A stretch of DNA of 51,974 bases from an uncultured bacterium (GTDB taxonomy: Bacteria; Bacillota_I; Bacilli_A; RF39; UBA660): the NCBI GenBank assembly GCA_949285875.1, contig CASDZZ010000005.1, positions 1 to 51,974 of the forward strand. The letters run 5' to 3'. Positions 9,671 through 11,517 of this stretch are shown here, piece by piece. The notes under the pieces are model-generated. The model had not been told where the DNA came from, did no database searches, and was given only the letters and a program-made list of their open reading frames with translations. Numbering within the stretch: position 1 is the stretch's first letter; each line of letters opens with the position of its first letter. The position numbers and the translations under genes are program-made.

Positions 9671-9756
9671 TACACTGTAGAACAATTTTATATTATAGGT
9701 GTGAATGACATAATTTTGTTCAAAAAAAAGTGTACAATTAAAATGAGGAGGAAAAA

Positions 9757-11427
9757 ATGAAAAAATATAATTTGCTTAAAGTTCTTGGTATAACTATATT
9801 TGTTACTTGGGTGTTAACTTTAATTATTCCTGGTTCTAGTATAGATTATAGTGGGAATATAGTTTCAGGTTCTATTAGTGGAATTGGAATATGGTCTTTG
9901 TTTTCAAATTTAAATATTTCTATTTCTTACTTTAACGCAATAGCTATATTTGTTATTGCAATAGCAATTTTTTATTCTATTTTAGTAAAGATAGAAATAT
10001 ATAATAATTTTGTAGAAAAAACTTCTAAATTATTTGAAAACAAAAACAAATTATTAGTAACTCTTTCAATCGTATTTTTTGGATTATTTGGGATGCTAAT
10101 GAAGGATGCTACTATATTGTTAGTATTTATGCCCTTTATGTACCAAGTAATGAAAAAAATAGGATTGGATAAAAAGGTTATTTTATCATCTACAATTGTA
10201 GCTTCTATAGTAGGTTCAATGTGTGGAATTTATAATGATATATTATTTAATATGTTTTCTTTAAAGTTAAACACATTACTATTGGTAAAAGTTATTCTAT
10301 TAGTAGTTTCTTTAGCAGCTTTGTCAATTTTAGTCACACCAAAGAAAGAGGAAAAAGAAGTAAAGAAAAGTACTAAAAAAACTATTTCTAAGAAAGAAAC
10401 TAAAGAAGATAAAAAGGTAAAAGTGACTGCAAAGGAGAAGAAAGTAAACAAAGTCTTATACGCAGTATTAACTCTATTTTTGGGTGCATTTGGTATTAAC
10501 AAGTTCTATGCAGGTAATATTAAAGGTGGTCTAATAAGTTTATTATTATGCTGGACTTTTGTTCCTTTAATTTTATCAGTAGCTGAATTCATTACTGTTT
10601 TAACTGAAAAGGCAGATAAGAATGGTCAAATTTCTGTTAGAAGTAAGAGAAGAGATAATGTAGCTTTCGGAGTTGGAGCGGTAGTTATTACATTATTTAT
10701 AATTCTTTCTACTATTCCTTGGGAATCATTATTTAGTAATTTTACTATTTTTAGTGATTTTAATACATGGCTTTCAACTTTAAAAATAGGAGATTATACA
10801 ATATTTAGTAACTTAATTGGCGAGCCCGTTACTGTTGATCCTACTTATGGATCTGCTAGTGGGGTTATAAATGCCTTTGGTTCTTGGACCATGACTGATA
10901 TTTCTATATTATTAATATTGGTTTCATTTGTAATTGCATTATTAAATAAAATTGAACTTAACGAATTTATCTCAACTGTAACTGGTGGAATAAAAAAAGC
11001 TTTACCAATTGCTATAACTGCTATGTTAATAAGTTTAGTTCTAGTATTAACGGTTACTTCTGGGGTAACAACTACAATTGTTAATGCAATTTTAACTTTA
11101 ACTAAGAACTTTAATGTAGGTACAAGTATTTTAGCTAGTATAATAGGTAGTTTATTTACCGCTGATTTTTATTACTTTGCTTCAAACGTAGGTGTTATTT
11201 TTACTATTCTTTTTGATAGTACTGAAAATTATGGTGTTATTGCTTTCATTATTCAGTCAATTTATAATTTAGTTATGATTGTAGCTCCTACTAGCGTAGC
11301 TTTGATAATAGGATTATACTATTTAAACATACCTTATACAAAGTGGTTAAAATATGTATGGAAAATTTTATTAGTACTATTTATATTAATAGTTATTACA
11401 GCAGTTGTTATTTTTGCTTTAGTTTAA
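9757..11427 (+). CDS. YfcC/DcuC-like transporter with an inserted TM2 domain
   Basis: A polytopic membrane protein of 556 residues. The N-terminal part (about 1-195, with 'IIPGSSIDYSG' and several hydrophobic helices) and the C-terminal part (about 295-556, with 'VTSGVTTTIVNAI' and 'IVAPTSVALIIGL') resemble the two halves of YfcC-type carriers (C4-dicarboxylate/arginine-ornithine-like superfamily). Between them lie a Lys/Glu/Thr-rich linker (about 196-232) and a TM2 domain (about 233-290: 'LGAFGINKFYAG' followed by a second hydrophobic helix), then a basic loop 'RSKRRD'. TM2 is normally a stand-alone two-helix domain, so the fusion is unusual. The substrate is unknown. The start follows GAGGAGGAAAAA, and a terminator follows the stop. 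Confidence 0.75.
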   Translation: MKKYNLLKVLGITIFVTWVLTLIIPGSSIDYSGNIVSGSISGIGIWSLFSNLNISISYFNAIAIFVIAIAIFYSILVKIEIYNNFVEKTSKLFENKNKLLVTLSIVFFGLFGMLMKDATILLVFMPFMYQVMKKIGLDKKVILSSTIVASIVGSMCGIYNDILFNMFSLKLNTLLLVKVILLVVSLAALSILVTPKKEEKEVKKSTKKTISKKETKEDKKVKVTAKEKKVNKVLYAVLTLFLGAFGINKFYAGNIKGGLISLLLCWTFVPLILSVAEFITVLTEKADKNGQISVRSKRRDNVAFGVGAVVITLFIILSTIPWESLFSNFTIFSDFNTWLSTLKIGDYTIFSNLIGEPVTVDPTYGSASGVINAFGSWTMTDISILLILVSFVIALLNKIELNEFISTVTGGIKKALPIAITAMLISLVLVLTVTSGVTTTIVNAILTLTKNFNVGTSILASIIGSLFTADFYYFASNVGVIFTILFDSTENYGVIAFIIQSIYNLVMIVAPTSVALIIGLYYLNIPYTKWLKYVWKILLVLFILIVITAVVIFALV

Positions 11428-11432
11428 CAAAG

Positions 11433-11456
11433 AAAAGACTTTTTAGTCTTTTTTTT
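11433..11456 (+). terminator. Terminator after the TM2-containing transporter
   Basis: Stem AAAAGACT / AGTCTTTT (11433-11440, 11445-11452), loop TTTT, followed by more T residues to 11456. Confidence 0.82.
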
Positions 11457-11517
11457 GTTTAAATATAAAATAAATTAAACATAACAAACATAGGATATAT
11501 AAAGGAAGGGGAATATC

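Follow-up and report, generated by a model that had tools for sequence, protein, structure and literature searches.

Two described families meet in the gene analysed here: the DcuC/YfcC carriers (PF03606; PRK11588), which we take to belong to the IT superfamily, and the TM2 domain (PF05154), which is widespread in bacteria and also occurs in the TM2D proteins of animals. Elsewhere in the class, TM2 proteins are mostly stand-alone products of ~80-150 aa or carry TM2 as a terminal domain, whereas in the present protein it lies in the middle of the chain. A described parallel for a carrier with an added membrane module is found in the TRAP carriers (DctQ/DctM, SiaQM), whose M subunit resembles VcINDY and has the counterpart of the helix that opens the second half in the scaffold (PMC9971032); this scaffold is extended by a small Q module, which is either separate or fused through an extra helix (PMC9971032, PMC10942642). 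TRAP, whose carrier is reported to resemble the IT-type VcINDY, and the carrier described here both have a small membrane module that can be separate or fused, although the TRAP module is a four-helix Q that precedes a complete M, whereas the module here sits between the two presumed repeats of a carrier with no known binding protein; the likeness drawn is one of architecture. A further described system is ArcE (TC 2.A.118), an arginine/ornithine exchanger whose family has been placed in the IT superfamily (PMC5300872).

The window, i.e. the whole stretch of 51,974 nucleotides analysed, contains on its forward strand an open reading frame (ORF) of 556 aa (9757..11427) that, from the ORF call, its sequence and Pfam matches, encodes a carrier with an internal TM2 domain. 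It is preceded by a strong ribosome-binding site, AGGAGG (9746..9751), at the right distance from the ATG. All parts of the gene lie on the same strand. The first half of a DcuC/YfcC-type carrier (residues 1-195; 9757..10341), delimited from Pfam DcuC/CitMHS and alignment, is followed by a Lys-rich linker, predicted to be cytoplasmic (residues 196-228; 10342..10440), whose position is that of the gene junction in split relatives. Then come the TM2 domain (residues 229-284; 10441..10608), a basic connector recognized from alignment and charge profile (residues 285-299; 10609..10653) and the second half of the carrier (residues 300-556; 10654..11424), in which the Pfam DcuC match extends to residue 551, in agreement with the alignment. 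Immediately after the coding region, a perfect A/U-rich hairpin whose descending arm is T-rich (11426..11459) folds at -15.7 kcal/mol (z -5.3) and is a probable transcription end, although a G+C-based terminator scan did not pick it up. Throughout the genus the carrier gene is flanked by dus on one side and clpC on the other, with clpC falling outside the view in two contigs; the hairpin after the stop codon suggests that the carrier gene ends its own transcript and, therefore, that it probably does not share an operon with clpC.

Pfam confirms the core of the initial annotation, a TM2 domain between two halves of one carrier. TM2 matched residues 229-278 (E 5.8e-10; score 39.7 bits, well above the cut-off of 27.9), and all 12 fused relatives matched it above the curated cut-off. 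The turn motif N-K-F-Y occurs within G-I-N-K-F-Y-x-G, which is the counterpart of the DRF turn of animal TM2D proteins. DcuC matched residues 62-551, encompassing both halves, with a narrow pass (E 6e-6; score 25.5 bits, cut-off 23.1), and CitMHS stayed below its Pfam cut-off. Despite this marginal score the assignment as a carrier is secure, because 26 of 28 aligned relatives match DcuC, with a best E of 6e-29, those from other genera mostly strongly, and 17 of the 28 match the YfcC model (NCBIfam PRK11588) at E <= 0.01. The proposal of a YfcC-type carrier thus holds through these relatives and the DcuC match, but the protein of the window itself shows no match to the YfcC model at E <= 10. 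Judged by these profile comparisons it is a divergent DcuC/YfcC-type carrier that differs from the family in having TM2 between its halves and in having close relatives split into two ORFs. No PDB chain matched the protein in a sequence search, and the AlphaFold2 model from the single sequence (pLDDT 42.8) was set aside as unusable. Comparison of the first half with the second by hhalign gave a weak match (probability 41-55) for an internal repeat. The layout had been thought undescribed, and indeed a search of open-access papers retrieved none that combines a TM2 domain with DcuC.

The carrier gene was present in all 18 genomes of the genus, whose members have small genomes, in three forms. 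The fused, TM2-containing layout recurs among homologues in 12 of them, so that it is conserved. Four others (G004, G005, G010 and G011) have the carrier split in two ORFs, with TM2 occupying residues 5-60 of the second, and in the remaining two (G006 and G008) the gene is likewise split but the second ORF opens with DUF5684 (E 7.7e-17 and 1.8e-11, respectively) in the place of TM2. DUF5684 is mentioned in none of the open-access papers searched. Across the bacterial family the carrier was found in 348 of 386 genomes and 140 of 150 genera. Outside the genus it is mostly a single ORF without TM2; the place between the halves is occupied only by a hydrophilic basic loop of 32-82 residues in 35 of 37 sequences, and by a different, non-TM2 pair of hydrophobic helices in the other two (L019 and L021). 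In the family sample outside the genus, TM2 occurred in frames of more than 400 aa in two genomes (G429 and G396), both frames being unrelated to the carrier, and among 395 genomes sampled across the class the ORF of the window was the only TM2 frame of more than 400 aa among the matches listed. The view that TM2 normally occurs alone or at protein ends is roughly right, with the exception of TPR-TM2 proteins of the same family (TPR identified by eye), where it is also found in mid-protein.

The six split genes share a sequence of 22 nt, GAAAGAAGGTGRCYAAATAATG, inside which the first ORF ends and the second starts; it comprises a ribosome-binding site and, after it, a stop codon and a start codon that overlap by one base. 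The ribosome-binding site of the second ORF is AAGAAGGTG. An 18-nt core of this junction occurs once per split locus and has no other copy in the compared loci (1.48 Mb, counting both strands). Because a strong ribosome-binding site precedes the second ATG, programmed frameshifting at the junction is less likely than re-initiation, and no canonical slippery heptamer was found there. At the C-terminus of the first-half proteins of the split genes (L104-L109) lies a tail of roughly 50-85 residues, rich in Lys, Ala and Thr, which is shorter in the fused genes; these tails resemble the low-complexity tails of histone H1-like proteins.

The linkers of the fused genes may preserve a trace of this junction. 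In the window, the codons for Lys-Lys-Val (residues 219-221; 10411..10419) are in register with AAGAAGGTG of the split genes and are thus a possible relic of it, and in 8 of the 12 fused linkers, including that of the window, Lys-Lys-Val lies seven residues ahead of the next x-Val. Removing 5 nt from the split junction (e.g. TAATG) produces the same KKV-7-xV spacing and gives the closest fit to the linkers of the fused genes. The fused linkers also fit the split junction better than shuffled sequences do (p 0.005-0.026). Since the sequence is of low complexity, this match is suggestive, not proof, that the Lys-Lys-Val codons derive from the ribosome-binding site of a split gene.

Phylogenies of the neighbouring genes set these forms in order. 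The genus root was taken from the neighbour-gene tree, because trees of the transporter alone could not place it. In a tree of ClpC plus Dus rooted on other genera, the pair with the DUF5684 split is sister to all TM2 forms (support 99/96), and the window branches off first within the TM2 clade (99/97). The split form of G010 and the fused form of G014 are sisters both in the neighbour-gene tree (97/97) and in the transporter tree (97/96). With the transporter and neighbour genes together, and excluding G009, a single clade of fused forms was rejected (p-AU 0.0004), as was a single clade of split TM2 forms (p-AU 0.0005); with the transporter alone, monophyly of the fused forms was not rejected (p-AU 0.06). 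In G009 (L097), Dus groups with that of G016 and the transporter with that of G002, a possible case of recombination or mis-binning between both genes.

One homologous split junction is thus found on both sides of the deepest fork in the genus, so that a split ancestor and repeated fusion are the simplest reading. That the ancestor within the genus was split, with TM2 as the N-terminal domain of a separate second half that was trapped by later fusion, is well supported, and the halves were probably fused more than once. The initial annotation had TM2 inserted into an intact gene, which is most likely not what happened: in 6 of the 18 genomes of the genus the halves are encoded by two overlapping ORFs, the second of which opens with TM2 or DUF5684, and the middle position of the domain follows from their fusion.

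A different history, compatible with any mechanism, would have the ORFs fused only once, at the root of the TM2 branch, after which related species exchanged split and fused alleles. We regard it as the most serious competitor, though a less likely one: it would explain why the KKV-7-xV spacing is the same in two thirds of the fused linkers and why G009 groups with different genomes in the transporter and Dus trees, but G010 and G014, one split and one fused, are paired by their neighbour genes as well as by their transporters.

TM2 is also the slowest-evolving region of the protein. Mean identity among the fused proteins is 0.76 for TM2, compared with 0.69 for the first half and 0.66 for the second, and over 120 pairs within the genus mean dN is 0.140 for TM2, the lowest of all regions, versus 0.211 and 0.235 for the halves. 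The domain is therefore kept by selection, also in the fused proteins, and does something. As for its topology, the chain shows the alternation of basic loops that the positive-inside rule predicts, and both the linker, with about 16 K/R, and the connector that follows TM2, with about 5.5 K/R, fall on the basic side; this charge pattern requires an even number of membrane crossings by TM2. The linker had been described as Lys/Glu-rich; it is indeed charged, but is better called Lys-rich, with about 16 K/R against 4 D/E from residue 192 to 241. Likewise, it had been proposed that two extra helices keep the topology of the second half. The flanking charges fit the even number of crossings, but the hydropathy profile, with a weak first core and one clear hydrophobic core, does not establish two full crossings.

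The strong purifying selection on TM2 is also what would be expected if it had entered an intact carrier gene as a module for regulation or oligomerisation, the roles suggested in the initial annotation, or for sensing, with the split genes as later breakages. The mostly single ORF of the relatives outside the genus and the similar look of the fused linkers fit such an insertion too. We nevertheless consider such an insertion unlikely, though a regulatory or oligomerisation role as such is conceivable, because the split TM2 forms are not one clade, so that the same 22-nt junction would have had to arise in several separate breakages, and this junction is carried as well by the sister branch with DUF5684; moreover, our literature search gave no ligand or partner for a bacterial TM2. 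About equally doubtful is that TM2 and DUF5684 are mere leader segments that orient the insertion of the second half, TM2 being a neutral leftover in the fused proteins. Two unrelated modules occupy the same slot in the split genes, and both are followed, ahead of the second half, by a charged and probably cytoplasmic stretch, as leaders might be, but a leftover should not evolve more slowly than the carrier around it, as TM2 does in the fused proteins. Finally, although the genomes searched are mostly drafts in many contigs, it is extremely improbable that the fused form is chimaeric or that frameshift errors produced the split one, because the agreement of 12 genomes on the former rules out the mis-assembled fusion considered in the initial annotation, and in the six genomes with the latter the junction is identical, the ribosome-binding site good and both ORFs intact.

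Our best explanation, to which we give a probability of about 0.5, is that of a YfcC/DcuC-type secondary carrier whose halves are joined via a TM2 domain in the loop between them, with a split-then-fused history and a role of TM2 in bracing the scaffold. In the ancestral carrier, two ORFs coupled in translation would have encoded the halves, and the second half would have begun with a small membrane module, TM2 in one branch and DUF5684 in another. With the loss of the stop/start overlap the ORFs would have been fused, probably more than once, leaving TM2 in mid-protein. The fold of the carrier would be of the elevator type of the IT superfamily, and TM2 is placed directly before the helix that opens the second half; judged from TRAP M subunits, this helix probably belongs to the fixed scaffold. 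TM2 would then most likely pack on the scaffold, hold the halves together and steady it, much as the Q subunit and the fusion helix do in TRAP, and TM2, or DUF5684 in the sister branch, might have aided the pairing of the halves while they were separate proteins. A scaffold that braces both halves, by analogy with TRAP carriers, is our best guess for the function of TM2.

In more general terms, the halves would be made either as separate coupled proteins or as one, with TM2 and DUF5684 interchangeable at the seam, and a domain would reach the middle of a protein through splitting, capture at the free end and re-fusion; we see roughly even odds for this proposal. If true, the genus would provide a natural series of a domain reaching the middle of a membrane protein by these steps. 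The presence of TM2 and DUF5684 in the same slot of one carrier, in fused and split versions from sister species, makes the role of the TM2 module testable, as well as how a membrane protein can accept an extra domain in its middle without being destroyed. For the species with split genes, it predicts half-carriers that need to pair for function.

Additions of helix pairs were also seen in the carrier elsewhere. In other genera, the same carrier has an extra N-terminal helix pair (L119, in G375:C4, and L121, in G112:C7), and the carrier of G375, of 735 aa, has DUF5684 also at its C-terminus. Other helix pairs lie within the second half (G138, L043, L051), their place in L043, L051 and L118 being its first outside loop. 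These additions fit a scaffold that tolerates them at its edge.

With respect to the substrate, one DcuC-type homologue (L031) lies beside genes for arginine deiminase and ornithine carbamoyltransferase, named by eye, and from it we considered an arginine/ornithine exchanger. This candidate was set aside, since the genome of the window has another DcuC carrier near its arginine deiminase gene (C4:29267-30397). That carrier, which is ArcE-like and a far stronger DcuC match, lies ~2 kb downstream (C4:32474-33763), the two genes together spanning C4:29267-33763 (L123-L125). The gene of the window, with dus and clpC as neighbours, is not beside genes of the arginine deiminase pathway, unlike L031, whose neighbours recall those of ArcE; the carrier of the window is thus unlikely to serve this pathway as its exchanger. 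The dus/lysS and clpC neighbourhood gave no clue to the substrate, and a riboswitch search at gathering thresholds retrieved none.

TM2 domains are also found in other contexts in the family (L112-L117), with domain names assigned by eye: TM2 is joined to a restriction-endonuclease-like domain in L113, follows TPR-like repeats in L114 and L115, and occurs with a zinc ribbon and a DnaQ-like exonuclease in L116 and L117.
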